DNA of 64,000 bases, from NCBI GenBank assembly GCA_963678705.1, contig OY783204.1, positions 3,482,701-3,546,700 on the forward strand, read 5' to 3'. Shown piece after piece: positions 1-47,599 of this stretch (positions are counted from its first letter, which is position 1; every line of letters begins with the position of its first letter). The stretch comes from Panorpa germanica (Eukaryota; Arthropoda; Insecta; Mecoptera; Panorpidae). The notes beneath the pieces are model-generated. The model made no database searches. It saw only the letters and a list, made by a program, of their open reading frames with translations, and was not told the origin of the DNA. Made by a program: the position numbers and the translations under genes.

Positions 1-566
1 CAATTGTTTTCATGAGTTAGGTCACAACCCTTTTTTGGAATTAATATTGTCCTGTTTCGAAGCCAAGCTTGCGGGTAGATCTTTAGTAATATTAGTGCAT
101 TAAATAGCTTTGCCAGCACAACTTCCAAACCTTCTACTGTTATGAGGTGAAGTTTCTTTAGTCGATCTAGACCTGGTGCAGAATTCTTTTTTAACAAAAA
201 GATGGTATATTTGACACCCTCAGGGTCAATCGGTGTTAGTTCACCTAGTTTAACCTTATGCTTCTGCGAGTATTTGTACGTAGTTTGGTTCGGAGTGCCC
301 CAAAGCTCCTTGTATATCTTTTCAACTTTCGCTGGATTTAACTTATTAGATGTTGCTAGACTGGGTGTATCATCACCCGTTACTATGTAATATGCAAGTT
401 TTCTTGGGTGTTTGTGGAACAAGTTCTGTTGCATCGCATGATTGAACTGTTTTAAGGCTGGACCTCGAGGGTTTGTGTTTTCGACGTATCCGTCTTTTCC
501 TTCTGCCCGCTACCTTCCGCACTGAGGTCTTATCTGCGGGTAGCAACAGTTTTTGCAGATGTTGCG
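1..566 (-). mobile_element. R2 LINE fragment (left arm)
   Basis: Reverse strand encodes the region before the reverse transcriptase core (LTPID, SAPGLD, FNALILLKIYPQAWLRNR, ILIPK) as in the R2 copy at 60367. It is interrupted and cut by the window edge, and joins BEL/Pao gag sequence near 570. Confidence 0.8.
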
Positions 567-589
567 CTGCGATTCTGAATATTAAAAAA

Positions 590-1135
590 TGATGTGATGT
601 GAAATAATTTTGCGTTTGTTATCATAGGTATCAAGAAGAAGCTGCCATGATAGCTCATAATTTTTTTCATCGATTTCGATTGAGGTGATAGTGTCAAGCG
701 CTTCTCCTTTTAAACAACTTCTTGTGGTCGTCGAATCTGGATTGAGCATGTATTAAACTGATGTAACTAGATTTAAAGGCATGCCACTGTGACACATCGC
801 CACTAAACTCAGGGGCCGAAATTCGAGGCAATTCTATAGCACTATCATGAGAGTGATTTGAATGTGCTTATTATTTTGTTAAATTTGGCTATGAGGTCTG
901 TATATTTTATGGTGACGTCAGTAAGCTCTTTTTCAATTCGTATACTTTCGACCTTATCCTCACTAATTAGTTCTTGTAATTTCATACACGTGTCTTCGCA
1001 GGCCTACTGCAGCGGCAGACAAATACCTATGTGTACTTTAATAGTCTCTAAGTCATTTGTACGAGGGTTATCAAGTTTGATATTATTAACTATGTTCATG
1101 TACATGTCTACCTGGTTGTATGCGACTGCATAGTT
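590..1135 (-). mobile_element. BEL/Pao gag fossil fragment (left arm)
   Basis: Reverse complement of the gag-like piece at 59780-60348, whose PQFSGD and W-FKS words are typical of BEL/Pao gag (DUF1759 type). Fragment only, with several breaks. No LTR is assigned. Confidence 0.55.
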
Positions 1136-1319
1136 GCATACAAAAGCTAAATATTTGCAGGAGCTCAAAAAACTAATTGACTAAATAATAGTTATACTAA
1201 TAATAGACTAAATAATAGCTAATAGCTAGACTAATATAAAATACTCTTCTACTCATAAAATATCAACAATTATCAAGAACAATCGATAGGCCATGACGTA
1301 ATCCGTACACAATAGAATT

Positions 1320-1769
1320 TCAATATAATAAGTCAATATGATCAAAAATATATTGTTTTATACTTTTCATAATATTAACCTCATTACTAATTTTCGGCAA
1401 AATATTTTGCAATATTCTGCAAATAATAATAAATTGCTTACTAAAATTAGTATGAAGGAGACACAAAGCATTAGGACTATATCGCCTTGCTATTATTAGC
1501 TCATGCTCCGGTAGCTCTACATCAGAAATCATATTTCTTCTGCAGATTTCACATTTTTTACTTTTTCTTTCTATTTTCTGAGCAACAAAGCCAGACACAT
1601 ATATTTTCGTGCTTCTTGACATTTTAATTAAATCTATTGATGTCAGGGAATCAGAGGATTCCGTTGCACAAGCTGGCGAGTCGTCAGCAATAAAACTTTT
1701 CAATAACGCTATTGTGTAATCACTCTCACAGTTTGTTCCTACAGCATTAGATGACACCAAATTATTCAA
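1320..1769 (-). pseudogene. P-element/THAP-type transposase C-terminal fragment (left arm)
   Basis: A 149-codon open frame ends at 1320. It carries IYVSGFVAQKI, a CEIC pair, ELIIAR and LC-HTNFSKQ, a pattern seen in the C-terminal part of P/THAP9-like transposases. This copy holds about 100 bp more upstream coding sequence than its right-arm twin. The rest of the transposase is absent. The family call comes from motif memory only. Confidence 0.5.
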
Positions 1770-2144
1770 TAATAAAGTTTTAAAAGAAGCACTAAAAGCA
1801 GTGCATGATGGATTACAATCAATTTAGTTAGTAGAACCCGTCGTTGTCGTAGAACGTAGTATATAGCATTATTGCCTAGTTCAAACTTACCGTCACAATA
1901 AAATAGATATAGATATTAGAACCATTGTTCTAGTATAAGACAACAAATTATTCGTAGTAACAAGAAATATTATATTTCTCTGTCAAGTTAACAAATCATA
2001 CAGTCCACTTTAAATCTAAGACCTAAGCAACCAACCGAAAACTCTTCAATAATTTAGAGCATTAAAAGGTCGCATACGTCGTGTACAACTAATTTAAATT
2101 TAGATTAAACATATCTCTACAACCTGCCCTACATTTTCTTATTA
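1770..2144. other. Unassigned AT-rich stretch of the left arm
   Basis: No coding pattern. It is matched by 58850-59170 in the right arm and may be non-coding Copia or transposase flank. 1136-1319 is likewise unassigned, with short repeats of ACTAAATAATAG. Confidence 0.4.
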
Positions 2145-2935
2145 CTAATAGCGGTAGTAACTCTTAAGTAGTATTTCTGAATAGTCTACTCCATATTTTT
2201 GAGTAAATCCTTTGACAACAAGCCTTGCACGGTATCGCACTGTATTATCACATTCATATTTTTTCCGCAACACCCACTTACCCTTTACTATTGTAAAACT
2301 TTTAGATGTATCTAGTAGCTCCCACGCATTGTTATCGTCAAAACACTTTAACTCTTCTCGCACTGCCTCTAATCACTGCTGTCGTTCTGATCATCTCAGC
2401 GTCTCTTCCAGGGCCCCTTTCAGATCAAAGTTATCATCCACATAACTAACACATGTATTTGTGAAACCATATGTTTCAGGTTGCTTTCTTTGCCTTTGAA
2501 AACCACGTGGTAATTTAGTGGTAATATGTACTTTGAGTATTGTCTGTACTATCACTTGTGTTAGGATCTTCATCTAAATAGGGTATATATATATTTCATC
2601 TTCATCAGACACTATGCTATCTTTATGTTCCGAAAACTTTTTCTTTTCCCTACTGAATATAATAGATCGTTAGAAGTGAATTGAATTGTCTACATCTACT
2701 GTGGTTTCACCTGGTGAAGGATTATCTTCAATTATAATCACATCTCGACTGACACAACTCTTTTCTTAGAGTTGTAAATACGATACCCCTTCACAATTTC
2801 TTGATATCCAACTAGGATACATTTTTCAGCTTTTCTATCCCGTTTTTTTCAATTTATTTTGGTACATGGACCATAACTGTGCTACCGAAAATTATCAAGT
2901 GACTTATGGTTTTCTTGTAGTAAAAAGTTCAAAAG
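2145..2935 (-). mobile_element. Ty1/Copia fossil fragment (left arm)
   Basis: Reverse strand shows the end of an integrase region (KCILVGYQ type) and the start of a Copia reverse transcriptase (NAWELLDTSK, KGKWVLRKK, VRYRARLV-KGFTQKYGVDYSE). No LTRs are visible. Fragmentary with several breaks. Same piece as 58055-58835. Confidence 0.75.
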
Positions 2936-2939
2936 GTGT

Positions 2940-4747
2940 TACGGTATAATTCCACCGTAATCTATTTTAGAGCGGATCAAAGTTTGAAAAATATGCATTC
3001 GAGTTTTCTGTTCACTTCCCCAATTATTGCATGATATAACTTTCATAACATTTATGACAGTACTACAATTTGTTCTTTAAATTTTTGATATGATCGACCC
3101 AGGATAATTTTTCATATATAATCATACCCAAATAAGAAATTTGGCATGTTCTTCATTATATATTGTCAGCCTTGGAGAAAAAATAAGCTTCGGAGATTTC
3201 TTAAAAAGGATGTACTTATTTTTGGTAGTAGATAATATATCCTGTTTTATTGGATCTGTCTTCTTGGTTTTCAGTTTAGAGCTGATTGAAGTTTTCTTTA
3301 AGCTATTACTACGTCCTTGTTGCTGCAGTTAATAACTAAGTCTTCACTACATGTTTTATGTTATTGATTTTGTTGTTTATGAAAATTAGAAAACAATGTT
3401 ACACTAAGAACTGATCCTAGAATTTTCGCTGGTTTACTTTTATTGATTTTATTTTGTTCCATACTTGTTTGTGAATTTATGGAATATACAAATTGTTTCC
3501 TTGCTTGCTTCATGGTTTTTTGCGCTACTGCTTTTACAGTTTTGTGATGTTTGTATCTGTTAAAAGCTGTTTTCTTCATTTTAAGAGCATTAGCACATGA
3601 ATCATTTTACCAAGGTAGGTAGGGCCGGTTTGGGTAGGCCAATTTTCTTTTTTAAATCTGAGTTATTTGCTGCTGCTAATATCTTGGAATAAATAGATAA
3701 TGTTATTACATCTGTGTGATCATCTTCGTTAAATGTTATCTTATTATTAGATATTTCTTCAATTTATAAATTTCAATTCGATTTAGATATGTTCCATCTT
3801 CATCCTGACCAGTTCATATCTGTTATATTGCTTAAGATTTGAAGTAGAATTGGAAAATGACCACCTCCTTATAAATAGACATATAAATGGACTGGTAGGA
3901 CTGACCATTCTAGTGTCGATGCTACTTGCGGCTGGCATAGATTTAAATCAATTGCTGATGTACTTTGTAAAGAAAAATTAAAAGGCGTGCGTTGGCCGTC
4001 ATTCAAAAGTATTAAATTATTATTATCCAATAATCTTTCTATTAATTTACCTCTGTTACCTCTGTAATATAAAGGGGAGAGGTAATTGTGTTATGTGTTA
4101 TTGAGTATGTTTTCAATATCTAATATTATATTTTGACTGTTTGGTAGATATAGGTTATAAATAGTAATTTTTTGTGGAAATGTGCTCTGACCACGAGTTG
4201 GATTGTATAGTTATATGTTCCGAATAAAAATACTGTCTTACCAGTGTAGCCACTCCACCACTGGCGTGTTCCGTAAGTCGATCTTTTCGGAATATATTGT
4301 ATTTTTAATATTCAGTGTTTGTATTGGCTTAAAATTTAATTCTTGTAAACAGATTAAAATGGGATTGTAATCTATTGCAAATCTTTGAAAGTTTTCTAAA
4401 CAGCTAAAGAAGCCGTTTGAATTTCATTTCGCTTCCTGCTACTTCGCCGCGAGCCTCAAATTGCCTTAAATTGTAATCAGACATAACTTGTTGAATTTTA
4501 TTTTGTACTAATCTCTCACGGCAGTCTTTATCTGTTGCATGGTGGTTACCGCTACAATTTGTGCACCTTGAAGTTGTAGCTGTGCATGTTGACATTGTAT
4601 GTTTTGGTAGGATTTTTGCTACGCCAATATCTTCACATTGTCTAAGCTCATTTATATCTTTATCAAAGTCAAATTCCAGAAGAACTCCCCTATCTGTTAC
4701 CAGTCTTATTTTTCTAACCTTTATCTCCTTTAATTTTGGCTTAATAT
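2940..4747 (-). mobile_element. Jockey-type LINE fragment: ORF1 end, endonuclease, start of ORF2 linker and RT tail (left arm)
   Basis: Read on the minus strand: an ORF1 zinc knuckle (CTNCSGNHHATDKDC, about 4500-4560), then an APE-type endonuclease region (KDRL, GGVATLVR, LNDGQRTPFNFS; about 3780-4330), then the endonuclease-RT linker (RYKHHKTVK, KQARKQFVYSINSQTS; 3361-3600), then a late RT piece (SKIDYGGIIP; about 2940-3060). Most of the RT is missing. Frames are broken repeatedly. Confidence 0.7.
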
Positions 4748-5026
4748 TTTTTTTTATTATACCTATTATATTGTTATAACTAGTTTATATAAACTATCTA
4801 ACAAACATTTTTTCTAGTTAATTTTAATAATGGTAATATTTTTGAACTCAGAGTATTAACCATTATTGATACTCTTTTTCTGTCGGTCATCTTACTAGCT
4901 CAAATGGCTTAGTTCCCATTAGTCTTTTTGTCAGTCCATCCGTGTGCAGCACGTGAAATGTTTCCACGTTGATATGGTGTTGGAGACGTTGCTCGTGTTT
5001 TCTTGCAATTTCTTCAGATACTGTAT
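4748..5026 (-). mobile_element. Jockey ORF2 C-terminal tail (left arm), cut by the 91-bp array
   Basis: Minus strand encodes EEIARKHEQRLQHH and TDGLTKRL-GTKPFELVR, the typical jockey ORF2 tail, followed by an A-rich 3' end. It loses homology to the right-arm twin at 5026/5027, where the array starts. Confidence 0.75.
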
Positions 5027-7756
5027 CAATCACCTTATTAAGAAATACTCGTACATTAATTTCTATCAAATTGTCCGTTTTGCTTAATTACAGGTACTTG
5101 TAATCCTCTCTTCTCTTCAATCACCTTATTAAGAAATACTCGTACATTAATTTCTATCAAATTGTCCGTTTTGCTTAATTACAGGTACTTGTAATCCTCT
5201 CTTCTCTTCAATCACCTTATTAAGAAATACTCGTACATTAATTTCTATCAAATTGTCCGTTTTGCTTAATTACAGGTACTTGTAATCCTCTCTTCTCTTC
5301 AATCACCTTATTAAGAAATACTCGTACATTAATTTCTATCAAATTGTCCGTTTTGCTTAATTACAGGTACTTGTAATCCTCTCTTCTCTTCAATCACCTT
5401 ATTAAGAAATACTCGTACATTAATTTCTATCAAATTGTCCGTTTTGCTTAATTACAGGTACTTGTAATCCTCTCTTCTCTTCAATCACCTTATTAAGAAA
5501 TACTCGTACATTAATTTCTATCAAATTGTCCGTTTTGCTTAATTACAGGTACTTGTAGTCCTCTCTTCTCTTCAATCACCTTATTAAGAAATACTCGTAC
5601 ATTAATTTCTATCAAATTGTCCGTTTTGCTTATTTACAGGTACTTGTAATCCTCTCTTCTCTTCAATCACCTTATTAAGAAATACTCGTACATTAATTTC
5701 TATCAAATTGTCCGTTTTGCTTAATTACAGGTACTTGTAATCCTCTCTTCTCTTCAATCACCTTATTAAGAAATACTCGTACATTAATTTCTATCAAATT
5801 GTCCGTTTTGCTTAATTACAGGTACTTGTAATCCTCTCTTCTCTTCAATCACCTTATTAAGAAATACTCGTACATTAATTTCAATCAAATTGTCCGTTTT
5901 GCTTAATTACAGGTACTTGTAATCCTCTCTTCTCTTCAATCACCTTATTAAGAAATACTCGTACATTAATTTCTATCAAATTGTCCGTTTTGCTTAATTA
6001 CAGGTACTTGTAGTCCTCTCTTCTCTTCAATCACCTTATTAAGAAATACTCGTACATTAATTTCTATCAAATTGTCCGTTTTGCTTAATTACAGGTACTT
6101 GTAATCCTCTCTTCTCTTCAATCACCTTATTAAGAAATACTCGTACATTAATTTCTATCAAATTGTCCGTTTTGCTTAATTACAGGTACTTGTAATCCTC
6201 TCTTCTCTTCAATCACCTTATTAAGAAATACTCGTACATTAATTTCTATCAAATTGTCCGTTTTGCTTAATTACAGGTACTTGTAATCCTCTCTTCTCTT
6301 CAATCACCTTATTAAGAAATACTCGTACATTAATTTCTATCAAATTGTCCGTTTTGCTTAATTACAGGTACTTGTAATCCTCTCTTCTCTTCAATCACCT
6401 TATTAAGAAATACTCGTACATTAATTTCAATCAAATTGTCCGTTTTGCTTAATTACAGGTACTTGTAATCCTCTCTTCTCTTCAATCACCTTATTAAGAA
6501 ATACTCGTACATTAATTTCTATCAAATTGTCCGTTTTGCTTAATTACAGGTACTTGTAGTCCTCTCTTCTCTTCAATCACCTTATTAAGAAATACTCGTA
6601 CATTAATTTCTATCAAATTGTCCGTTTTGCTTAATTACAGGTACTTGTAATCCTCTCTTCTCTTCAATCACCTTATTAAGAAATACTCGTACATTAATTT
6701 CTATCAAATTGTCCGTTTTGCTTAATTACAGGTACTTGTAATCCTCTCTTCTCTTCAATCACCTTATTAAGAAATACTCGTACATTAATTTCTATCAAAT
6801 TGTCCGTTTTGCTTAATTACAGGTACTTGTAATCCTCTCTTCTCTTCAATCACCTTATTAAGAAATACTCGTACATTAATTTCTATCAAATTGTCCGTTT
6901 TGCTTAATTACAGGTACTTGTAATCCTCTCTTCTCTTCAATCACCTTATTAAGAAATACTCGTACATTAATTTCTATCAAATTGTCCGTTTTGCTTAATT
7001 ACAGGTACTTGTAATCCTCTCTTCTCTTCAATCACCTTATTAAGAAATACTCGTACATTAATTTCTATCAAATTGTCCGTTTTGCTTAATTACAGGTACT
7101 TGTAATCCTCTCTTCTCTTCAATCACCTTATTAAGAAATACTCGTACATTAATTTCTATTAAATTGTCTGTTTTGCTTAATTACAGGTACTTGTAATCCT
7201 CTCTTCTCTTTAATCACCTTATTAAGAAATACTCGTACATTAATTTCTATCAAATTGTCCGTTTTGCTTAATTACAGGTACTTGTAATCCTCTCTTCTCT
7301 TCAATCACCTTATTAAGAAATACTCGTACATTAATTTCTATCAAATTGTCCGTTTTGCTTAATTACAGGTACTTGTAATCCTCTCTTCTCTTCAATCACC
7401 TTATTAAGAAATACTCGTACATTAATTTCTATCAAATTGTCCGTTTTGCTTAATTACAGGTACTTGTAGTCCTCTCTTCTCTTCAATCACCTTATTAAGA
7501 AATACTCGTACATTAATTTCTATCAAATTGTCCGTTTTGCTTAATTACAGGTACTTGTAATCCTCTTTTCTCTTCAATCACCTTATTAAGAAATACTCGT
7601 ACATTAATTTCTATCAAATTGTCCGTTTTGTTTAATTACAGGTACTTGTAATCCTCTCTTCTCTTCAATCACCTTATTAAGAAATACTCGTACATTAATT
7701 TCTATGAAATTGTCCGTTTTGCTTAATTACAGGTACTTGTAGTCCTCTCTTCTCTA
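5027..7756 (+). repeat. 91-bp satellite, 30 units, each carrying a splice acceptor
   Basis: Thirty contiguous near-identical 91-bp units (2730 bp). Each contains TTTTGCTTAATTACAG followed by GTACTTGTAATCC. In the last unit this is the true acceptor (AG at 7731-7732) and first bases of the modSP Wonton exon. Acceptor positions are 5093 plus multiples of 91, ending at 7732. The unit is therefore about 67 bp of intron plus 24 bp of exon. A few units carry GTAGTCC or TTTCAATCAAA variants. Confidence 0.95.
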
Positions 7757-7939
7757 CATCATTAAACTTCGTCTGCTACTTCCAGGACAAAGAGTTAGAT
7801 TGTGAACAGCCGTTGCCCTATGGTGCCGTGGCAGTAACTGAATGCAAAGAACATTACTTACCCAAGGAAGCTGCTGTTGGCAACGTAACCTGCAAAGACA
7901 GTGGCTTTTGGAATATACCTGACGTTAAGTGTATTGCTG
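7733..7939 (+). CDS. modSP: modSP exon: Wonton domain 1
   Basis: Exon of 207 bp, the same length as the Wonton exon at 24867-25073. It enters and leaves in phase 1. Cysteines follow the same pattern as the downstream copy: TC-PL near the start, then CY, DC, EC and VKC at the end. The acceptor is the last of the 30 repeated acceptors of the 91-bp array, and the first 23 bases of the exon lie inside the array. The donor is GTAAGA. An AG at 7784-7785 could look like an acceptor, but it would remove half the domain. Confidence 0.8.
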
Positions 7940-10900
7940 GTAAGATTATGAGGATTTATATATTTACTAGCTTTTACCCCCGTCGCAAGCGACGTCTGTT
8001 TTTTGTGAGTGGCTTGAATTTCATGTCAAAATTTAATTCCATTTTTAAATTGAAATAATAAATAAACTCGTCCTATATTAATTTTACATTTAATGACAAT
8101 TAATTTTTCATACAAACTGACTAAGAAAATATATTTTTTTATATCAAAATAAAAAATATTTTTAATTTATGCGTTATTTGACCAACTTTTTTTCAAAATG
8201 TGGGATTTCTTTTTCGATTAGTAAATAAGTTATCAAAGTTAGCCTATATACAAAATTTCAACTTTCTAGCACAATTTTTACACTCGGAAAATACTGCCCT
8301 ATGTACCCCCAAATAAAATTTTGAATGTTTGAATTTTCTATTATTAATAATATACTTAATTATTCTAGAATCCAGAATATGAACTTTCTCCAACGTTCCC
8401 TACCGAGCCCCCGAATTTCTTCAACCCCCCCTTTTTCAAATTTTGAATTTCTAATTGTTGAGATATAGCCCGGTCAAATTAAACCAAAAAATGAGAGTAA
8501 AATTACATAAATTCCCACCAAGCTGAAAATCGGTAAGATTGTTTAAAATATCATTAAAAACAAAATTTGAAAACTCCCCATCTCTCCCCTGTGAGGAAAA
8601 ATTTTTATTTAAGGTCATTAAGGCGATTTTCAGCAAAACGGTAAGTTTTATCATAAAAATACCTCAGACAAAAATTGTAGATCATAAAATTATCTACAAA
8701 AAATTTATTAATACTTTTTTCTCTACGAGCTACCGTTTTTGAGATATAACGATTCAAAAAGTTGTAATCGTCATAATATGCATGAGTACGCCACGTATAT
8801 ATGACCATTTTTCTATCGGTCATTGTAACTTACACTACTAATATAAAATATACAACAACGGACAATATATATCAACGGACATGGTAATCGAGCAGTCTAT
8901 GATGAAAGCCATGAAGACAGATGGAGGTATTGCTCGAGGGAGAAATACAAAAGAGAGTGTCATAAGTAAATGGGTTTATAGTATGCATGCTATGAATACC
9001 GTTTGTGAAAAATTAGAAGATCTCGCTAACGTTAGGATGGATACGACCGAGCAGCATGTTGATGCAAGTGATTCGCGAATGAAAAAAGATGCTAAAGATG
9101 TACGAAAACTTTTAGAGTATTTCTCAACGCATGATCCTTTTCCAGACGTTAGCAAAATTGTTTCTATTGCGAGTGGTGTCGTTGGTGATGATAAAATCAA
9201 TTGTTATAAAGCTCGTGAAGTTGGGCTTGCTTCTATGGCAAAAATGACAGGACTCACATTCAATAATATTAAATTAAAACGCTCTGACAAAGTTGTTCCT
9301 CTTTTAGCTATGACTAGTACCATAAAAGTTCATGAAGAAAAAGTACCTGTTGACCCTGTATTGTTGTTCCAACGCATGTGTATTACTGCAGCATTTCAAG
9401 ATGAAATAGAAAACTATTTTCAATATGAACTATTTCCCTACCCTCTATCGTTATTTGATGACATCGAGATGCGTAAAACACAGAAGTCTGCAATTTACGA
9501 TTGTTTCGAAAAGGTAGACTTTGATATTAACAACACAAATGCGACATACATCATTGACGGAGGATACTTACTACATCGCGTTGTGTGGGATAGTGAAGAA
9601 ACATTCAACGTTATATTAGATAAATACGTACAGTATGTACGTCGACATTTTGGTTTCCGAGTTACTGTCGTATTTGATGGCTATAATGATTGCACGAGAA
9701 ATACCAAAGCTGCAGAACAGCGTCGTCGAACTTTAGCAACATTTTCATCAATTGATATTTTATTTGATGAAAATATGACAGTTCCAACCAGCCAACAAAA
9801 ATTTCTTTCTAATACTCACAACAAGTCTCGGTTCATTTCAATGTTGAAAGAAAGATTTACTACGGAAAATATATTGGTAAGACAAGCTAATAATGATGCT
9901 GATGTATTGATAATTGAAACAGCAATTGAGCAATTCAATTTGACAAATACAACTATTGTTGTTGGTGAAGATATAGACTTACTCGTATTACTGACTGCTC
10001 GAACTCCAACTGAAAAAACTATTTTCTTCTTAAAACCAGGAAAAGCTCAACATCAATCGGAAACGTATTCATCAAAAAGTTTATCTACTTTTGCAAAGTG
10101 TCAAAATCATGTACTATTTTTACACGCAATAACTGGCTGTGATACGACATCTGCATTTTACAGGAGGGGTAAAATAACAGTTTTCAAACTATTTGAGAAA
10201 CAAAATTTAATTGAATGTGCTGAAGTTTTTAAAAATATTAATTCTACTCGACAAGAAATTATTACTAACGGCATTTGCTTTCTTCTTTCTATGTACGGAG
10301 CTCTTAAAAAAACTACCTGCTTAGATAAGTATAGATATGCATGTTTCGTTAAAAACACCAAAAGTAAAAAACAAGTACAATTAGCTTGTCTTTGACCCGT
10401 GGAATAGGCCTACTGGAGAAACCACGTTAAAAAAAACGCGCTAAGTACACTACCTCATAGGTGGCGAGGAAACGTGTGCATATTATGACGATTACAACTT
10501 TTACAACTTTTTGAATCGTTATATCTCAGAAACGGTGGCTCGTAGAGAAAAAAGTATTAATAAATTTCTTGTAGATAATTTTATGATCTACAATTTTTGT
10601 CTGAGGTATTTTTATGATAAAACTTACCGTTTTGCTGAAAATCGCGAAAAACTCATTTCGTTGACCTTTGACCTTGAATAAAATTTATTCCTCACAGGGG
10701 AGAGATGGGGAGTTTTCAAATTTTGTTTTTAATGATATTCTAAACAATCTTACCGATTTTCAGCTTGGTGGGAATTTATGTAATTTCGAATGTCTAACTT
10801 GACCGGGCTAATATGTCAGCATTGAATACCTTAATACACATGCAAAATTTCAACTTTCTATCTTTTACGAATTAAAAGTAATACAGCAAAAAAGGCTCAC

Positions 10901-13900
10901 TTTTTTTTCCAGTTTTTCCAAAATAACGGGTTTCTAGGAAATTCAGGGAAAAATCCGGGGATGCTAGAGGTCTTAGAATTTTTTTCTCTTTAAAGTCTCT
11001 TTAAAAGTCAAGAGTTTACCCCCGTCGCAATGCGACGTCTTTTTGGCGTGTATGATTTGAATGCAATAAAATAATTCGTAATTACATTTCATATTTAATT
11101 CTATTTTTAAATTGAAATAATAAATAAACTCGCGCACAATACATTAACACATATAAATTGACTAAAAAAATAATTTTTTTTTATCAAAATAAAAATTATT
11201 TTCAATTTATGTGTTATTTGACCAACTTTTTTTCAAAATTTGGTATTTTTTTTTTCGATTCGTAAATAAGTTACCAAGGTTAGCCTATATACAAAATTTC
11301 AACTTTCTAGCACAATTTTTACACTCGGCAAATACTGTCCCCGTGCCCCCAAATAAAATTTTGAAATTTTGAATTTTTTTTGATTAATAATATACTTAAT
11401 TATTCTAGAATCCAGAATATGAACTTTCTCCAAAGTTCCCTACCGGGCCCCCGAATTTCTTCAACCCCCCCCTTTTTCAATTTTTGAATTTCTAATTTTT
11501 GAGAAATGTCAGCATTGAATACCTTAATATAGATGCAAAATTTCAACTTTCTATCTCTTACCAACTCAAAGTAATACAGCAAAAAAGGGATCACTTTTTT
11601 CCAGTTTTTCCAAAATTACGGGTTTTCAGGAAATTCAGGGAAAAAACCCGGGACGCCAAAAGTCTTAGAATTTTTTCCTCTACGAAATAGGAAATTTTTA
11701 AAAACTTCCCTGGAGCCGTTTTCGAGATGCCATACAAAATTCGAACCAAACATATAAACACATAAACATATAAGAATATAAATATACACCTGGGACATTA
11801 TAATATACTTGAGTTTACCCCCGTCGCAATGCGACGTCTTTTTGGTGTGTATCATTTGAATCCAATAAAATAACTCGTAATTAAATTTCATATTTAACTG
11901 TTCTATTTTTAAATTGAAATAATAAATAAACTCGCGCACATATACACACATATAAATTGACTAAAAAAATATTATTTTTTTTTCAAAATAAAAAATATTT
12001 TCAATTTATGCGTTATTTGACCAACTTTTTTTCAAAATTTGGGATTTTTTTTTTCGATTCGTAAATAAGTTACCAAGGTTAGCCTACATACAAAATTTCA
12101 ATTTTCTAGCACAATTTTTACTCTCGGGAAATACTGCCCCCGTGCCCCCCAATAAAATTTTGAAATTTTGTATTTTTTTTTAATAATAATATACTTAATT
12201 ATTCTAGAATCCAGAATATGAACTTTCTCCAAAGTTCATACCGAGCCCCCGAATTTCTTCAACCCCCCCTTTTTCAATTTTTGAATTTCTACTTTTTGAG
12301 AAATGTCAGAATTAAGTACCTTAATACATATGCAAAATTTCAACTTTCTATCATTTACGACTTAAAAGTAATGCAGCAAAAAAGGGATCACTTTTTTTCC
12401 AGTTTTTCCAAAATTACGGGTTTCCAGGAAATTCAGGGAAAAATCCAGGGACGCCAAAAGTCTTAGAATTTTTTTCTCTACGAAATAGGAAATTTTTAAA
12501 AACTTCCCTGGAGCCGTTTTCGAGATGCCATACAAAATTCGAACCAAACATATAAGAATATAAGATCATAAGATCATAAATATACACCTGGGACATTATA
12601 ATATACTAGCGCTTCGCCCCGTCGCAAAGCGACGTGTATTTAATATTTGTAAATAAAAAAAGTTATTTGATTATTTTAAAATAATGCAAAATATTATTTT
12701 TAAGTAATTTTCGCTAAAATATATCATTTTTTAAATTTATATTTCCTTATTTTGTTCTAAATCCTTTATTTACAGTAATAAAGCACTGTATTGACCAGTC
12801 TCCAGTACCCCCGCCCATAAGCCCCAATCGTCCGAACTTTTAATTTGATTCCTTTAAACTTCCTCCCCAATAATCCCCGCTCCTGAAATAAAATTGTCAA
12901 ATTTTAGGCATAGCAATCTATTTTGCTCGTAACAACTCTCTCTACCTTTATCTACGTCTACTTTTATAAATGATCGAAATTTCAAAATTGAGTTCTTTGG
13001 CAAAGCTTTTTCCCGCCCCCACTTCCCCAATTTCACGCCGCTACTAAAGTTAAATTTATTTTTCAAATATGCACATGCATAGTTTCTATTTTTTCGCTTC
13101 TTCTATTATTGATATTTGGGGCTGTTAACTATTACCCCACTATACCTCTCACTCCTGTTTGATTTTACAGCACAACAAACGCACCAAAAATCAATTCAAC
13201 TCTACTATTGAATGTAATTTGACTATCTAACTTATAGAGAACTATTGTGCTTCTATTTATTATTCTACATGCAAAATATCATCGTTGTACCTCTATATTG
13301 TTCTTATACTCGGTTTATCACCCCCCACTCTAATGTTGAACTAAAGAAAATGTTTTTTTTTTTATATTTTCGTAATAAATATGTCAATCTATATCTGCAT
13401 ACTAAATTTTAGCTTTGTATTTATATTTTAGCATTAAAACCCCCCACAAACCTCCGCTTCTGAACAAGTTTGTTAAATTTTAGCACGGGGATCTATTTTA
13501 TTTGTATCTAAGAACATGTTTTTTTAAACTATAGCCCTTCATCTCTATATATTTCATATTTCTGGTTTTTAGCCCCCAGCGCCCGCCGCCTCTGGAAAGT
13601 TTTCTTTAGTTTTTCTTTAATGATACTCTATATAAGGCCCACGTTCCAAATATCAACGTTCTAGCTCTGTTGCGACATTGCTCCCAAAAAATCACGCCGC
13701 TACTGAATTAAAATTTTGGTAATCCAATTATTGGCAAACATGCGCAATTAGTGTCTCAATACATACCCTAAGTTTTAATACTACTTTTTCAATATTTCTG
13801 GCTTTTACTGTGTCACCTCCCGCCGCCACTGGAAATTTGGGGCTTTTTATTTTTTTTTCTTTAATTACTGTCTACAGCGAGCCTACATATTAAATTTGAA

Positions 13901-16900
13901 CGTCCTAACTCTTTTCTAACATTGCCCCCTGAAACTCGCGTCGATACTGAACTTAAATTTCAAATTTCCAACTATTTGCAAATGTGCACTTTTATGATCT
14001 CAATACACATACCAAATTTCAGTTTTCTATCTTTTCTAGTTCGTCAGATATTTACAAAAGTATTTTTTCGAATTTTCCAGTTTTGTTAATTTTAGCATTA
14101 GAGCCTCTCACATATCTCCGCTACTGAATTAAAGTCCAAATATGTACCTCTTTATCGTACTTATCATTAGTTTATTACCTCTGCCCTAATGTTACACTAA
14201 AGAAAATGTAGTTTCTTTATATTTTTATTATTATTGTCAATCTATATCTGCATACTAAATTTCAGCTTTGTATTTAAATTTTAGCATTAGTACCCCCACA
14301 TACCACCGCTACTGAACAAGTTTGTCAAATTTTAGCACAAGGATCTATTTTATTTGTATCTAAGAATATATATTCTAAACTATAGCCTTTCATCTCCATA
14401 TATTTCAAATATCTGGTTTTTAGCCCCCAGCGCCCGCCGCCTCTGGAAAGTTGCAAATTTCTATAGTGTGTCTTTAATGACACTCTATATATGGCCCCCG
14501 TTCCAAATTTTAACGTTCTAGATTTTAGCACGAGGATCTATTTTATTTGTATCTAAGAATATATATTCTAAACTATTGCCTTTCATCTCCATATATTTCA
14601 AATATCTGGCTTTTGGCCCCCAGCGCCCGCCGCCTCTGGAAAGTTGCAAATTTCTATAGTGTGTCTTTAATGACACTCTATATATGGCCCCCGTTCCAAA
14701 TTTTAACTTTCTAGCTCTGTTGCGACATTGCCCCCAAAAAATCACGCCGCTACTGAATTAAAATTTTGGTAATCTAATTATTGGCAAACATGCGCAATTA
14801 GTGTCTCCATACATACCCTAAGTTATAATACTACATTTTCAATATTTCTGGCTTTTACTGTCTCAACTCCCGCCGCCACTGGAAATTTGGGGCTGTTTAT
14901 TTTTTTTCATTAATTACTGTCTACAGCGAGCCTACATATTAAATTTGAACGTCCTAACTCTATTCTAACATTGCCCCCAGAAATTCGCGCCGCTACTGAA
15001 CTTAAATTTCAAATTTCCAACTATGGGAAAATGTGCACAATTATGATCTCAATACACATACCAAATTTCAGTTTTCTATCTTTTCTAGTTCGTCAGATAT
15101 TAGCAAAAGTATTTTTTCGAATTTTCCAGTTTTTCCAGTATAAGTTTTTCCACGGAAATTCAGGGGAAAATTCAGGGACGTAGAAAGTCTTAGAAATTCG
15201 TCCTTTACATCGTACCAAAATTGGAAGAACTTTGTAGGCGCCGTTTAGAAGATACCATATACGATTTTGTTACCGGATATATAAATATATATCCATATAT
15301 CCATATATATATATATATAAATATCTATGAGTTCTTATGGGTTTTCCATGTTAAATTGGAACATTACGAACATTATAATAGTAAGATGACTAGCGCTTCG
15401 CCCCGTCGCAAAGCGACGTGTATTTAATATTTGTGAATAAAAACAGTTATTTGATAAATTGAAAATAATGCAAAATATTATTTTTAAGTAATTTTCGAAA
15501 ATATATATTATTTTTTAAATTTATATTTCCTTATTTTGTTATAATTCCTTTATTTACTGTTATAAAGCACTGTATTGACCAGTCTCCAGTGCCTCCGCCC
15601 ATAAGCCCCAATCGTCACCTCTTGGCTCCATGCTTTCTTACGTTTCCGAACTTTTAATTTGATTCCTCTAAACTTCCGCCATAGAGCGCCTTCTACTTTT
15701 AGCACTCTGCATCGCTTTTTCCCTGAGCATCGTCGGTCCTTAAAATACTTCCACAGCGCCCCCGCTGCGTAAAATTATCATTAACCATAATGAAGCACAG
15801 TATTGATTAATGTCCACTGCCCCGCCCCTAAACACCAATCACCTCTTGGCTCCATGCTCTGTATCGTTCTTGCACTTTTAATTGTATTCATCTGCATCTT
15901 TGCCACAATGCGCCCACTTGCAACACTACATGCTACCTGAGCATCATCGCTCATTAGGGTACTTTTCTATCCCCCCCGTTTAGCGCAATCATTAAATAAT
16001 CCTGCGCTTCCACCCCCTGCGTACTAATCTCTTAACAATTAGTTTTCAAAATTAATACTATACTGGCAACCTGCATACTAAATTTCATCCTTAGAAGTAC
16101 ATTATTTTTTAATAATTATTCGATAAGATAAATCTTTGATAAAATTTTCACTAATTTCAATGTAAACCTACTAATTACATCAATTCATTTATGTTTTTAA
16201 GAAAGCCTAGCAGTTCCCTCCCAATAATCTCATCTCTAGGCCTTTTCCTTCCCGTTATTGCACTTCCCCATACCCCGCCACCCACACTTTCAGCACCAAA
16301 GCACATATTCTACAACACGGTTACCTCCCAGAGCCATTATAATCTATCGCCACAACTTCTAACACCACCGTTACTTAGTACTGAACCCCAGCGCCACACT
16401 CTCTTCCAATCAGGCACTATTAATTCGATATTATAGCAATTCATTTACATGAATAAAACTGTACTGTAATCTTACATTCTATATTTCGTATTTATATTTA
16501 CGTTATAATATTAGTCACCCCATTATAGCGGGGGCTCCTGAAATAAAATTGTCAAATTTTAGGCATAGCAATCTATTTTGCTTGTAGCAACTCTCTCTAC
16601 CTTTATCTACCCCTACTTTTATAAATGATCGAAATTTCAAAATTGAGTTCTTTGGCAAAGCTTTTTCCCGCCCCCACTTCCCCAATTTCACGCCGCTACT
16701 AAGGTTAAATTTATTTTCGCAAATATGCACATGCATAGTTTCTATTTTTTCACTTCATCTATTTTTTGATATTTGGGGCTGTTAACTATTTCCCCCCTAT
16801 ACCTCTCACTCCTGCTCGATTTCACAGCACAACAAACGCACCAAAAATTAATTCAACTCTACTATTGAATGTAATTTGAATATCTGACTTATAGAGAACT

Positions 16901-19900
16901 ATTGTGCTTCTATTTAATATTCTACATGCAAAATATCATCGTTGTACCTCTATATTGTTAATATACTCGGTTTAACACCCCCTGCTCTAATGGTACACAT
17001 AAGAAAATATAGTTTGTTTATATTTTCGTTATTAATGTGTCAATCTATATCTGCATACTAAATTTCAGCTTTGTATTTTTTTTTTAGCATTAGTACCCCC
17101 CACATACCTCCGCTACTGAAGAAGTTTGTCAAATTTTAGCACGGGGATCTATTTTATTTGTACCTAAGAGCATATATTCTAAACTATAGCCATTCATCTC
17201 TATATATTTCATATTTCTGTTTTTTGGCCCCCAGCGCCCGCCGCCTCTGGAAAGTTGCAGTTTTCTATAGTTTGTCTTTAATGTTACACTAAAGAAAATG
17301 TAGTTTCTTTATATTTTTATTGTTATTGTCAAACTATATCTGCATACTAAATTTCAGCTTTGTATTTAAATTTTAGCATTAGTACCCCCCACATACCACC
17401 GCTACTGAACAACTTTGTCAAATTTTAGCACGAGGATCTATTTTATTTGTATCTAAGAATATATATTCTAAACTATAGCCTTTCATCGCCATATATTTCA
17501 AATATATGGTTTTTGGCACCCAGCGCCCGCCGCCTCTGGAAAGTTGCAAATTTCTATAGTGTGTCTTTAATGACACTCTATATATGGCCCCCGTTCCAAA
17601 TTTTAACGTTCTAGCTCTGTTGCGACATTGCCCCCAAAAAATCACGCCGCTACTGAATTAAAATTTTGGTAATCTAATTATTGGCAAACATGCGCAATTA
17701 GTGTCTCCATACATACCCTAAGTTATAATACTACATTTTCAATATTTCTGGCTTTTACTGTCTCAACTCCCGCCGCCACTGGAAATTTGGGGCTGTTTTT
17801 TTTTTTTAATTAATAACTGTCTACAGCGAGCCTACATATTAAATTTCAACGTCCTAACTCTATTCTAACATTGCCCCCGGAAATTCGCGCCGCTACTGAA
17901 CTTAAATTTCCAATTTCCAACTATTGGCAAATGTGCACAATTATGATCTCAATACACACACCAAATTTCAGTTTTCTATCTTTTCTAGTTCGTCGGATAT
18001 TAGCAAAAGTATTTTTTCGAATTTTCCAGTTTTTCCAGTATAAGTTTTTCCACGAAAATTCAGGGGAAAATTCAGGGACGTAGAAAGTCTTAGAAATTCG
18101 TCCTTTACATCATACCAAAATTTCAAGAACTTTGTAGGCGCCGTTTAGAAGATACCATATACGATTTTGTTACCGGATATATATATAAATAAATATATAA
18201 ATATATCTTACTATTATAATGTTCGTAATGTTCCAATTTAACATGGAAAACCCATAAGAACTCATAGATATTTATATATATATATATATGGATATATGGA
18301 TATATATTTATATATCCGGTAACAAAATCGTATATGGTATCTTCTAAACGGCGCCTACAAAGTTCTTCCAATTTTGGTACGATGTAAAGGACGAATTTCT
18401 AAGACTTTCTACGTCCCTGAATTTTCCCCTGAATTTCCGTGGAAAAACTTATACTGGAAAAACTGGAAAATTCGAAAAAATACTTTTGCTAATATCTGAC
18501 GAACTAGAAAAGATAGAAAACTGAAATTTGGTATGTGTATTGAGATCATAATTGTGCACATTTTCCCATAGTTGGAAATTTGAAATTTAAGTTCAGTAGC
18601 GGCGCGAATTTCTGGGGGCAATGTTAGAATAGAGTTAGGACGTTCAAATTTAATATGTAGGCTCGCTGTAGACAGTAATTAATGAAAAAAAATAAACAGC
18701 CCCAAATTTCCAGTGGCGGCGGGAGTTGAGACAGTAAAAGCCAGAAATATTGAAAATGTAGTATTATAACTTAGGGTATGTATGGAGACACTAATTGCGC
18801 ATGTTTGCCAATAATTAGATTACCAAAATTTTAATTCAGTAGCGGCGTGATTTTTTGGGGGCAATGTCGCAACAGAGCTAGAAAGTTAAAATTTGGAACG
18901 GGGGCCATATATAGAGTGTCATTAAAGACACACTATAGAAATTTGCAACTTTCCAGAGGCGGCGGGCGCTGGGGGCCAAAAGCCAGATATTTGAAATATA
19001 TGGAGATGAAAGGCAATAGTTTAGAATATATATTCTTAGATACAAATAAAATAGATCCTCGTGCTAAAATCTAGAACGTTAAAATTTGGAACGGGGGCCA
19101 TATATAGAGTGTCATTAAAGACACACTATAGAAATTTGCAACTTTCCAGAGGCGGCGGGCGCTGGGGGCTAAAAACCAGATATTTGAAATATATGGAGAT
19201 GAAAGGCTATAGTTTAGAATATATATTCTTAGATACAAATAAAATAGATCCTTGTGCTAAAATTTGACAAACTTGTTCAGTAGCGGTGGTATGTGGGGGT
19301 ACTAATGCTAAAATTTAAATACAAAGCTGAAATTTAGTATGCAGATATAGATTGACAATAATAATAAAAATATAAAGAAACTACATTTTCTTTAGTGTAA
19401 CATTAGGGCAGAGGTAATAAACTAATGATAAGTACGACAAAGAGGTACATATTTGGACTTTAATTCAGTAGCGGAGATATGTGAGAGGCTCTAATGCTAA
19501 AATTAACAAAACTGGAAAATTCGAAAAAATACTTTTGTAAATATCTGACGAACTAGAAAAGATAGAAAACTGAAATTTGGTATGTGTATTGAGATCATAA
19601 AAGTGCACATTTGCAAATAGTTGGAAATTTGAAATTTAAGTTCAGTATCGACGCGAGTTTCAGGGGGCAATGTTAGAAAAGAGTTAGGACGTTCAAATTT
19701 AATATGTAGGCTCGCTGTAGACAGTAATTAAAGAAAAAAAAAAAAAAAGCCCCAAATTTCCAGTGGCGGCGGGAGGTGACACAGTAAAAGCCAGAAATAT
19801 TGAAAAAGTAGTATTAAAACTTAGGGTATGTATTGAGACACTAATTGCGCATGTTTGCCAATAATTGGATTACCAAAATTTTAATTCAGTAGCGGCGTGA

Positions 19901-22900
19901 TTTTTTGGGAGCAATGTCGCAACAGAGCTAGAACGTTGATATTTGGAACGTGGGCCTTATATAGAGTATCATTAAAGAAAAACTAAAGAAAACTTTCCAG
20001 AGGCGGCGGGCGCTGGGGGCTAAAAACCAGAAATATGAAATATATAGAGATGAAGGGCTATAGTTTAAAAAAACATGTTCTTAGATACAAATAAAATAGA
20101 TCCCCGTGCTAAAATTTAACAAACTTGTTCAGAAGCGGAGGTTTGTGGGGGGTTTTAATGCTAAAATATAAATACAAAGCTAAAATTTAGTATGCAGATA
20201 TAGATTGACATATTTATTACGAAAATATAAAAAAAAAAACATTTTCTTTAGTTCAACATTAGAGTGGGGGGTGATAAACCGAGTATAAGAACAATATAGA
20301 GGTACAACGATGATATTTTGCATGTAGAATAATAAATAGAAGCACAATAGTTCTCTATAAGTTAGATAGTCAAATTACATTCAATAGTATAGTTGAATTG
20401 ATTTTTGGTGCGTTTGTTGTGCTGTAAAATCAAACAGGAGTGAGAGGTATAGTGGGGTAATAGTTAACAGCCCCAAATATCAATAATAGAAGAAGCGAAA
20501 AAATAGAAACTATGCATGTGCATATTTGAAAAATAAATTTAACTTTAGTAGCGGCGTGAAATTGGGGAAGTGGGGGCGGGAAAAAGCTTTGCCAAAGAAC
20601 TCAATTTTGAAATTTCGATCATTTATAAAAGTAGACGTAGATAAAGGTAGAGAGAGTTGTTACGAGCAAAATAGATTGCTATGCCTAAAATTTGACAATT
20701 TTATTTCAGGAGCGGGGATTATTGGGGAGAGGAATTTAGAAGGAAGTTTAGAGGAATCAAATTAAAAGTTCGGACGATTGGGGCTTATGGGCGGGGGTAC
20801 TGGAGACTGGTCAATACAGTGCTTTATTACTGTAAATAAAGGATTTAGAACAAAATAAGGAAATATAAATTTAAAAAATGATATATTTTAGCGAAAATTA
20901 CTTAAAAATAATATTTTGCATTATTTTAAAATAATCAAATAACTTTTTTTATTTACAAATATTAAATACACGTCGCTTTGCGACGGGGCGAAGCGCTAGT
21001 AAATATATAACGCTCTATATAAATATCTATGAGTTCTTATGAGTTTTCCATGTTAAATTGGAACATTACGAACATTATAATAAGTAGATAAGAATATAAG
21101 ATCATAAGAATATAAATATACACCTGGGACATTATAATATAGGATGAAAAGTGCGCCATTTATGAATAATTTGTTTCAGAGTGTGCTGGTAAGACATCTT
21201 ACGACGCTGTTTCCACCCCTGGGATCGAACCATATAGTACTTTGCAATACGTTGCTACAATCTATGAAAATATCACGCACGACGAGCCCACTCAGAGGGG
21301 GACTGGTACTATTGTTAGTGCAAAATTCGTTATTACAAGTAAGTACTTATTTTCAACAATAATAAAATGTACCATTTGTTGTTAAAATTGACTATCAGAA
21401 CCTTAAATGTCCAATTACTTATTAATATTATGGGAGATATTAATAATTATAATAGTATATAGTTATTTGAATCTCTTTCAACATTGAAGTGAGTAAACTT
21501 TATAAAAAAATAGTTTCATTATCTTACGTCATTTTAATTTTTACACTATCTTCCCATAAAATCTTCATTTCTAATGAATTGCCATTCTTATTAGAGAGTA
21601 TAACAGACATAGCATATTTATTTACTATTTATGTATATCAAATACTTAACTGATAGACCTGTTTCAAGCAACTCATAAAGTTTTGATTTTCTAAGGTGAA
21701 AAGCAAGTTTAAATAAAATCGATTACTTATTATACAAATAAGATATAGTTATATACAAATAATATATTACAGACGCTTTGTCCTTCTGGACCTTTGGAGC
21801 AAGATTAAATTTAACTTTCTTTACAATTGGTTACGGATTGAAACACAATAAGTGGCACCATCCGCTGAATCATGCTGCCAAATATAGTCCTGTGAAACGC
21901 CTCGTTTTTCATCCTAAGTATGTGCAATAGAAGTAGGCCTATCTCACACTGCAACCGACGCCAACATATTGAGTTTATTTTTAGTTATTTCACTTTACCA
22001 TAAGAGCACCTTCCTGCTGTGTTGTGAGTAACACAAGTGTTTATTATGTATCTGTGTCGTTCTCCTCTCAACGTTTCGATTGTAATGAAATAATAAACAC
22101 AAAAGACAGCTCACATTTTAAGGAATATGCATGCCAGCATGATCTGGATCTTCTTCTGCAGAAGTAAAAACCATATTATCCATACAGACGTATGCAATAG
22201 ATACATACAGTGAGCTAACGCGACTGTATGTACACTATGTTCCAAGAAACCGGTTGCAGTGTGATAGCGGCCGTTATCTTTAATTGTTACTTTTTAATAT
22301 TCACACTAGACATATTCTTACAGATTTATTGGTCACTTTATGAAACATTCCCACAATGTTGCAGTAGTTGAGTTATTACATGTTATACAATTTAATGCTT
22401 TTGTAAAGCCGGCGTGTATCCAATGGAAAGAAGCACTGAACCACCAAATTGCCACACCAAACACTAAAGGAGAAGTACGTAAATCATATAATTACAAATC
22501 TTAACTGTGTGCGTGTGAAATTGCTTTATTTTTTAACAGATGTCTAATTGGAAAAATATCAAACCAAGCGATATTCCAAATGACGAACTAAGGACAACTG
22601 TGATTTCAACGATATCTACAGATGAATGTGAAAAGATTATAAAGGGAGAAGTTAACATGAAAGATAATATGTTTTGCGGAGAAATTATTAATGGTAATAA
22701 ATGAAAGGTTTAGTTTATACGTGTATACTCACAGGTATAGGTTTGATGTTATTTGTATCAACCTTCAGGTTCAATATGTGTGGGTGATATAGGCGCTGGA
22801 CTTGTCGTTTTAGACAACTACCAAGATCGCACCGTCTATGTCCTTAAAGCTATGTTCAGTCACGTTCCAATTATTGATGAAGCAATGTTCTGCAGCGTTA

Positions 22901-25900
22901 ACCAAATTGCCTTCTTCTCGAAACTATCAGACCACACACCTTGGCTAAGGGAACAAAAGATACACATTGAACCAACTGAATTCAAATGCAAATCTGGGAA
23001 AATCATTATTGCTAGCGCTGTTTGTGATGAGGTAAGATTATAGAAATAGACTGCATCAATCTAAGGTCAATTCTGTTAGGATGTCTAAAACAACTCAACT
23101 TAAACATGACTCTATACTTGTTATAAGAAATATACCCTTTATTGAAATCTCGTCTGTATTTTACAGATTTGTCTTCTTCTCTTTTGATATTTTAATCTTT
23201 AGAATTAAGGGGTCTTCTCACTTTAGGCACCTCGAAAATAGGCTATTTTCGCAATTTTTTTTCGAGCCTTTTTGCACAAAATTATGGGATAAAATGGATC
23301 CTATGTAATAAACACATCTTTCAAGTACAAGAAAATTATTTTTTTTAATTTTTTTGAACAATTATTATAACAAAAAAGTAGTATCGAAAAACTCGTGTAG
23401 AAATGTAATGTTCGTGGCTTGTTGATGGTATCTCCGAGACAGGTCATTTAAAACAAAAAAATAAAACAGTTTTAGATTCAGTATATCAGTGGCTATAGCG
23501 CATACCATCAGATTTTTGATATTCGCGAAAATAACAAAATGGCGCACGTTTTTTGAAAAAGTACCAAAAAAAACGCGTTTTTTTGCAGTTTTTTGTAAAA
23601 AAAAATACTTCAAATCAAAATTTTAAAAATCTGATGGTATGCGCTATAGCCATAACTATGAAGAATATGTCATTTAAATTTCATGACAATCGGCCGGATA
23701 GTTTCCGAAATTTCTTCAACAAGGCACTGAAAAACCTTGTTTTCAGATAAAAGCGTTTAAAGTTTGCTCCTTTAAAGCCGGGTGCTATAAGGTAGTCACC
23801 TAACGGTCGCCCAAAAACGTAGTTAGACTTGTCCGATCTTTATGAAATTTTGATATAACATTTTTGATATGTACTTTCAAAATTACAAAAAAAAAAAATC
23901 GATTTTTTAAAATTTGCAAAGTGAGAAGACCCCTTAATGAATAACAAGATATAGAAAGTAACACATTTGTCTCTATTGCTTTCTCATTTTTTGTCTGCTT
24001 TCTCTATTCCTTTCTCTTTTGTCTCTTACCTTACTTTGGTCTACAACTTGCGGTTTCTCTCCCCTCTTCGTTTCTTCCTTATTTCCGCCATCCAACTATC
24101 TTCTTGGATCATTTTCTTGTAACAACAGTTTCTCCAAAATTTCCTCCATTTTCCTGCAAATCCTCCTCTCTTGCCTCCTTCAACACTTGCGGTCTCTCAC
24201 GTTATTCCTCAGATTGAATAATGCACTTACCTATTTCTATATTTTTCCGAAAATCTTCCTCGTTAACAGTCGTTTAATCCTCTCCTTGTATGTTGCTTTC
24301 TCTATTTTATAATTTTCAAATATTCGTAGGTTGAAGACTGCATAGATGGATCAGATGAAATACTGAACTCATGCATATATAAAGATATAACTAATCTGGA
24401 ATCAAAGTAAGTATGTTCTTTAGAAGTAATTACACCACACGGACCATCTTAATCCAAAACTTATTTTGAAAACTTCATAATTTAACTCTGGAGATATTAA
24501 TGATAGAATATGTTTTTCTAAGGTGAGATACTACTTTAAAAGTATAAGTAAGTATTGTAATAAACAATTTCCATTGCAGAGTTGGAAAAGGAAACGGAAG
24601 TTACATAGCTCCGCCACAATTAAGAAATGGCAGATATTCTTTGTTTAACACTGGATTAGTACCAGAAGTTGGTGCAGTGATCGACATAAACGAGAAAATA
24701 ATATTTAAATGTGACGAAGGTTTTGAACTTAGCAAAAAAGATGATAGTTTATGTACCAATGGGGAGTGGGTTCCAACTATACCTAGGTGTTTGAGTAAGT
24801 TCCATTAGCTTGGTCATCCCATATGTGGCAGTTTATTTACATATTTATGTTCACATTAATTTGTAGAAACATGTGAGCCATTAAAATCCAAGCATGTTCA
24901 ATACTCCTGCTATGTAAATTCTACGACAGAACGATCTTGCGAAGAGCGCGTTCCTGCTGGTACAGTTGCTTTTATTCGATGTAATCTGCATTACAAGCCT
25001 TTGAAGGATATAGAAAGCTTCATCTGTGATGAGAATGGTTCCTGGGGACGAACAGATTTCGCATGTGTCCCAGGTAATAAACTCAAATTACTATATTGTT
25101 ATTGTTATTGTAATGTACTTGTCCCAGTGTAAATCAAATGTAAACCAGAATTTTGATCTAGTGGCTTTGCTAAATGACAGAGCAAAATGTGACCTCGAGA
25201 TATCTAAAGTTGATACTCATTCAGGATTATTGAGTAGTACAATGAGTGGGCAAGAAGTAGATGCGTCCATTGCAAAAGCCATCATTATTCAATTTCTCGC
25301 TGAAGGTGTTAAATCTTTCGAAATGTTGAGAAGACTTCAAGCACAGTTCGATGGAGAAACCCTTTCAAAGACCCAAATGTTTGATTGGTATCTTTGGAGT
25401 TGTAATTCATTTAATAAAAATAATGAGTTTACAATTTAGTAGATTACGTAGAAAAATGATTGTATGTTTTAATTTACCCAATAAAATTTATAAAAAGGAT
25501 TCTGGTTTAAATATGATCCATTTAGGTATATCTTTAATTCTAATGTTTTGTTGTACAAGCTTTTTACTTTCCTATATTTTCAGAATGCGGAAAACTTTCA
25601 AAAGATGCTACCTCTTTAATCATTGAAGGTACGGACGCTGAAATAGGGGAAACTCCTTGGAATGTTGCAATTTATAAAAACATTGACGAGTGGAGTCACA
25701 TTTGTGGAGGATCTCTAATTAATGTGAACATTATTCTCTCAGGTAATTAAAAATATATTTATTTTAGGAGACAACTATTAAAGAAAACAAAGATTTTCAT
25801 ACATTGGCCAAACATTTACTGCGTGTGTAGCTCTGTTCTTTTTCAATTTTCTACTTTCAATATGTTGTAAAACTATTTAATTTTATATTTCCTAATTATT

Positions 25901-40532: not shown

Positions 40533-41080
40533 TGTGGAACGTAAAAATAAATCGAGCATACAAAGTAGGCGTAACTATAATACCCGAGCTAGAAAAGTCG
40601 TAAAATAGTGTGATTAATGGGTATATTGTGAACAGAAACCAAGTGAAAGGTTAAAGCAATTATAATGTGTGAAACTTTAAACCACTGATTGAATACGTGA
40701 GGGGAATATGCTTACCGAAATTAAAGAAACGTATTCTTAGAAGTAAACCTATTAAGTCTAGCTGAAAACTAATGTAGGACTGAGTATATAATAACTAGAA
40801 TTTAAGGTTGTTTGTGCATTCATTTGTTCTGTATTTGTAAAGTAAACACCAACGTTTATATTGTAACCTTATTGTATTATCATTATTATTATCATTATTA
40901 TTTTCATCGTTATTATTTTATTCAATAAATGTATTAAACCAATTATGTGATTCTTTATCATCCTGACAAACCAACTAAGATATTACATATTTGAATATTA
41001 ATTGAATTGACATTGCCCTAAATTAAATAAGAGTACCTTGATTCCACATCAGATTAGCGGATTGGTTATTGTTTTCCACA
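40533..41080 (+). repeat. Ty3-like 5' LTR
   Basis: 548 bp between TGTGGAA and TTCCACA. Followed by a leader with a short tandem motif AAGTGCGGATTAG (41100-41200). Confidence 0.8.

Positions 41081-42912: not shown

Positions 42913-43620
<708 letters not shown>

Positions 43621-47565: not shown

Positions 47566-47599
<34 letters not shown>

Follow-up and report, generated by a model that had tools for sequence, protein, structure and literature searches.

A gene of Panorpa germanica that looks like a modular serine protease carries, in front of one of its exons, thirty tandem copies of its own intron/exon boundary. The array lies in what we call the window, the whole stretch of 64,000 nucleotides analysed here (contig OY783204.1). 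Each 91-bp unit holds the 3' end of the intron, a splice acceptor motif and the first bases of the exon, and the last unit runs straight into the exon itself. The best reading of this satellite is that it is an unusually long, young and mostly neutral minisatellite of the 'mirage' type: it probably arose from the gene's own boundary and is spliced out with the intron through the last acceptor. The rival explanations weighed below are not mutually exclusive. The repeat itself, established with Tandem Repeats Finder and by comparison of the units, is as follows.

5026-7755, + strand: tandem array of 30 x 91 bp; each unit consists of 68 bp of intron 3' end (ending in TTACAG) and 23 bp of exon 5' end

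Tandem Repeats Finder reports 5026-7755 with a period of 91, 30.0 copies, 99% matches, 0% indels and a score of 5362; the runner-up among its 28 rows for the window scores 946. Ten first-order Markov simulations of the window yielded no array with a period of at least 60 and at least three copies. The units are 99.5% identical to their consensus (14 differences in 2730 bases), and 18 of the 30 match it exactly. All of these figures describe one sequence in one assembly. The last copy shares 23 bp of exon with the consensus and continues directly into the exon at 7733-7939. The initial annotation had described 30 contiguous 91-bp units ending in TTACAG and the exon start, and both the program and the unit comparison bear this out. 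Its limits need small corrections: the array begins at 5026, not 5027, and ends by Tandem Repeats Finder at 7755, and the exon part is 23 bases long, not about 24.

Did the satellite come from the gene, or did the gene borrow its exon start from the satellite? The window holds a second exon of the same kind with which the first can be compared.

7731-7732, + strand: AG of the last acceptor, by homology with the paralogous exon the predicted splice site of the coding exon
7733-7939, + strand: Wonton/sushi-like exon, 207 nt, phase 1 in and out, donor CTG/gtaaga; Sushi match at E 1.7e-4, obtained only when the exon peptide is scanned alone
24867-25073, + strand: paralogous Wonton exon, 207 nt, phase 1, free of any repeat array (exon model, tblastn)

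The Wonton module, which resembles sushi and contains six cysteines, was first recognised in Manduca HP14 (PMC10036332). Translated, the two exons align by tblastn at E=2e-9 with 34% identity. They have a common start (T-C-x-P-L), phase and length. Because the array-free exon has these three features too, the start of the exon is ancestral, and the satellite was therefore derived from the gene and not the reverse. A satellite imported from elsewhere that supplied the exon start is rejected, since the first codons are homologous to those of an exon without an array. We also reject alternative acceptors inside the Wonton exon. It contains 13 AGs, among which only 7741-7742 scores above the array acceptor (5.8) and would shift the frame, while the six in-frame AGs score -7.2 or lower. 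Splicing into 7733-7939 is thus predicted by homology, and the earlier claim that the last unit supplies the real acceptor at 7732, giving an exon as long as its paralogue (207 bp), agrees with the shared phase and length. An exact scan of IMG/VR viral contigs with 36 bases across the boundary gave no match, in a search from which records of the window's own genome may be excluded.

The exon belongs to a gene that we modelled by hand as 15 exons with canonical splice sites, its frame open from 7733 to a stop at 30674. Beyond the two Wonton exons the model contains the following parts, all from the exon model and Pfam.

21180-23031, + strand: five exons encoding a serine-protease-like domain without the H, D and S of the catalytic triad
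24330-24794, + strand: exons encoding the end of an LDLa domain and a CCP (sushi) domain
25584-30674, + strand: exons encoding a serine protease domain with intact triad and a C-terminal LDLa, then the stop

By Pfam, the first half of the gene contains Trypsin and LDLa and the second Sushi, Trypsin and LDLa. The first protease unit has lost its H, D and S; the second has kept its triad. The set LDLa, CCP, Wonton and protease is therefore all present, the first, second and last by Pfam (LDLa, Sushi, Trypsin) and Wonton by exon homology and the published description only. The order listed for ModSP is LDLa repeats, CCP, Wonton and one C-terminal protease domain (PMC10036332). Our hand-made model has two protease units, each followed by LDLa, and its N-terminal part would lie to the left of the window. 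Because the order differs, we call the gene ModSP-like only. It looks like a modular serine protease with two protease units. That both belong to one gene is suggested by the continuous frame and the splice sites; two neighbouring genes are the alternative. A search with the 847-aa prediction returned no relative at E 0.001 or better among 7246 protein-search candidates.

The 13,240-nt intron after the Wonton exon is itself rich in repeats. It contains a 2.8-kb inverted repeat (12596-15387 and 18205-21010, 99.3% identical) and, at 8881-10395 on the + strand, a 504-aa open frame with no Pfam match at E 0.001. This frame is flanked by inverted repeats (8500-8767 and 10501-10786) and is probably a mobile element.

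Is the exon behind the array still in use? The first protease unit, that is the Wonton exon and a dead protease domain, might be a relic that transposable elements have cut off from its 5' part, in which case no acceptor of the array would be used at all. By tblastn, 1-7732 contains no CCP or Wonton exon of the first unit, and no upstream exon of that unit was found in the window. Nearly all of 1-5025 is a copy of a transposable-element block, and none of the three catalytic residues is left in the first protease domain. Yet the six exons between 7733 and 23031 are open, have canonical splice sites and lead in frame to the LDLa, CCP, Wonton and active protease that follow. Serine protease homologues without a triad are, moreover, common in insects. 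We regard the relic as quite unlikely.

If the gene is read, what happens when an early acceptor is chosen? With read-through into the following unit, all 29 earlier acceptors lead to a premature stop and none gives a productive message. The stop falls at codon 34 when the split first codon is counted as 1. The initial annotation had named codon 33; the stop is the same and only the counting of the split codon differs. The exon codon AAT, found in most units, becomes TAA in the shifted frame, and AGT, found in units 6, 11, 17, 27 and 30, becomes TAG, so both variants are stops.

These stops are what a splicing meter or poison array would need. Early acceptors would be used often, decay of the resulting messages would set the output of the gene and copy number would tune it. 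There is a human precedent of sorts in ABCA7, where a 25-bp VNTR includes a splice donor. In the tissues measured there, about 2% of transcripts are reported to retain one unit out of frame. Skipping of exon 19 rises and expression falls with VNTR length, although unit retention is described as unchanged with length (PMC5954066). Lancelet boundary repeats have the same anatomy as our array and are reported without aberrant mRNA (PMC3087553, PMC3902484). Nor do the units bear a sign of selection. An 11-base core is free of variants in all 30 units, but nine distinct changes would all miss it by chance with a probability of 0.31, and its invariance is therefore no such sign. A meter seems to us very unlikely, and the metering or poison-exon role put forward earlier is not borne out, given that the lancelet cases of the same anatomy are described as undisturbed (PMC3087553, PMC3902484). 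An effect on dosage is possible, given that the ABCA7 boundary VNTR shifts splicing with its length (PMC5954066).

An early choice may also be less harmful than the stops suggest. The earlier description of a satellite made of the gene's own splice acceptor was right about the anatomy, the read-through stop and, as judged by homology, the last acceptor, but it overlooked the GT that follows the AG in each unit. The motif CAG/GTACTTGT is present in 30 of 30 units, with AG/GT at every boundary. The stretch between successive acceptors thus reads GTACTT…TTACAG, 91 nt with both intron ends present.

5094-7732, + strand: 29 back-to-back potential GT-AG introns of 91 nt each (the first at 5094-5184), between successive CAG/GTACTTGT sites (splice-motif scan, U1 pairing)

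How good are these sites? The donor half compares well with those of the gene. Its best U1 duplex in any register has an energy of -7.1 kcal/mol, where the gene's 14 donors average -6.4 and range from -9.6 to -3.1, and of the 3295 GTs on the + strand of the window 2.1% pair at least as well. In a donor matrix it scores 7.1, against leave-one-out scores of 3.8 to 10.3 for the 14 real donors, and lies in the best 1.6% of 3280. The acceptor half is weaker. In a matrix made from the gene's 14 other acceptors, a small training set, the array acceptors score between 1.70 and 5.49; 27 units, including the last, have no variant among the scored bases and reach 1.87. The 14 other acceptors have a leave-one-out mean of 8.3 and a lowest score of 1.9, and 10% of 3306 other AGs match the score of the array acceptor. 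Because the array acceptors score this low, a strong site cannot be recognised from the motif by itself. As an intron the 91-nt unit would be ordinary for this gene: its A+T content is 69%, and the seven introns shorter than 200 nt measure 65-193 nt with 68-80%.

The array allows 435 internal donor-acceptor pairs. Each removes whole units, so the final message would be the same for any of them. It follows that a message begun at an early acceptor is not bound to be poisoned, since the retained units could leave as 91-nt introns and yield the same product. If the predicted AG/GT sites work, the array is splice-neutral.

A stronger version of this idea is a recursive-splicing ladder in which each CAG/GTACTTGT acts as a ratchet point: the upstream exon is spliced to an early acceptor, which regenerates a GT donor there, and what remains leaves in steps or one unit at a time. 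The presence of AG/GT in every unit and a donor comparable to the gene's real ones speak for it, and the recursive sites of Drosophila likewise set a 3' splice motif directly before a 5' motif around AG/GT (PMC6110457, PMC8605326). Those ratchet points, however, are described as conserved, mostly located in very long introns and generally strong in their motifs, and they are not satellites (PMC6110457, PMC8605326); in our array the donor half is good and the acceptor half weak, as judged by U1 pairing and by matrices built from this gene's own sites. The donor mismatches U1 at positions +4 and +5. After the first step its context would depend on the last bases of the upstream exon, which lie outside the sequence, and over the 64 possible contexts the energy therefore spreads from -7.1 to -0.7 with a mean of -2.4. 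Finally, if the ratchet donor at 7733 worked, the real exon's true donor would have a competitor. We judge a ladder unlikely.

The reading that we favour is a mirage-type minisatellite. A 91-bp segment over the gene's intron/exon boundary would have been duplicated in tandem, and slippage or unequal exchange would later have raised the number of copies to 30. The last acceptor would be the one mostly used, because it alone lies 207 nt from the donor of the exon, as exon definition would have it, and the array would be discarded with the intron. Occasional messages from early acceptors would go to nonsense-mediated decay or be repaired by removal of the retained units as GT-AG introns. If the array is neutral in this way, its growth over a splice site would become understandable even though the gene still reads as coding.

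Mirages are known from lancelets, where minisatellites lie over intron/exon boundaries in the Adh3, globin (BflGb6 and BflGb9) and troponin C genes (PMC3087553), with similar imperfect repeats in PGBD5. Their mRNA is reported as regular and splicing as undisturbed (PMC3087553, PMC3902484). Like our array they are tandem repeats across a boundary. In the published descriptions many of their units carry AG/GT, and they are homogenised inside and less so at the edge. In BflGb6 the repeats consist of the 3' end of an intron and the 5' part of exon 2. In Panorpa each unit spans the boundary with its 68 bp of intron and 23 bp of exon, and the gene's own boundary is kept at the edge of the array, where the last unit leads into an intact 207-nt exon. 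The array differs in its 30 units, where the two reported haplotypes of BflGb6 have 6 and 3 (arrays of this type typically vary in length from haplotype to haplotype), and in matching its consensus at 99.5%, against reported values of 81-100% between lancelet units. It also has AG/GT in every unit, sits in a gene of insect type and is known here from one DNA sequence. The kind is known; within it, this array is long and uniform.

The differences between units hint at how the array grew. There are nine distinct changes. Two linked variants are common to units 10-11 and units 16-17, a sign of multi-unit duplication. Six of the seven singleton variants fall in units 24-30 (permutation p 0.0005, the grouping having been picked after the data were seen), as do 8 of the 14 differences (permutation p 0.002, likewise post hoc), and the first five units equal the consensus in this single haplotype. 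The count of differences rises with unit number (rank correlation 0.39, p 0.03). Because singletons cluster in units 24-30, the units next to the exon look like the older ones and those at the opposite end like products of recent amplification. Units 6, 11, 17, 27, 28 and 30 carry variants in their exon part, 10 or 17 bases in. Assemblies are known to go wrong in near-identical repeats of 2.7 kb, and read errors or a collapsed graph might have made the number of units too high or too low. The nine variants, ordered and including the repeated pair in units 10-11 and 16-17, look instead like real repeat turnover, and we hold an artefact to be highly improbable.

The far side of the array ends at a mobile element.

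1-5025, - strand: composite transposable-element block ending exactly at the array start; inverted copy of 56029-60937, pieces 92-97% identical

In the copy at 56029-60937 the element continues past the corresponding junction. A whole number of units adjoins the junction, which suggests that the junction between array and element may predate the first duplication.

Further signs of mobile elements occur elsewhere in the window. Direct repeats at 40533-41098 and 42913-43476, 99.3% identical, lie at the ends of a stretch with a zinc-knuckle ORF (41372-42988), an arrangement that suggests an LTR element of recent origin. On the + strand, 46844-47811 and 53297-53671 match large-subunit rRNA models (two to the eukaryotic model, one to the bacterial), with a reverse transcriptase ORF at 50194-52554 between them. 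We take these to resemble an R2-type element in its rDNA target, located outside an rDNA array.

The comparison extends to introns that arise by duplication. In the potato RdRp gene an intron was gained by duplication across an intron-exon boundary, as 106 junction reads attest (PMC4974935). This fits the Rogers model, in which an exon-derived GT and the branch region and AG of the next copy make a new intron. Our array is likewise a duplication across a boundary and offers a GT and an AG from neighbouring copies in 30 of 30 units, with a good donor and a weak acceptor score. Potato has two copies; here there are 30, with the GT exactly at the old boundary, known from sequence alone. The fission yeast genes SPOG_01682 and SOCG_00815 also have tandem AGGT copies, with an intron across four or two duplicates, but their unit is a 24-bp exonic one without the ancestral acceptor (cited in PMC4974935). 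The ABCA7 VNTR in intron 18 resembles our array as a many-copy repeat that contains a splice site and shifts the frame when a unit is retained; it differs in being human, C-rich, on the donor side and built of 25-bp units (PMC5954066). A link with new introns is also reported for human minisatellites that lie in duplicated genes (PMC2812944). In the open-licence literature searched, mostly at the level of titles and abstracts, we found no many-copy array at an acceptor boundary outside lancelets, the donor-side ABCA7 repeat being the nearest.

What would such an array mean for the gene that bears it? How the spliceosome chooses among identical acceptors, whether it takes the first past the branch site, the nearest to the donor or the first transcribed, has mostly been tested with a few engineered copies. 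Panorpa presents 30 acceptors in a row, and the exon-part variants named above would let RNA reads tell some of them apart. Should the ladder hold after all, each 91-bp unit would be a self-removable intron, and a splice boundary would have been multiplied while the message stayed the same. The satellite would then be splice-neutral because of its period, and the gene would hold a native counting device for acceptor choice. More generally, the array may illustrate a route of intron multiplication: because the boundary reads AG/GT, each duplication adds a removable intron, at a cost that would be low if splicing copes.
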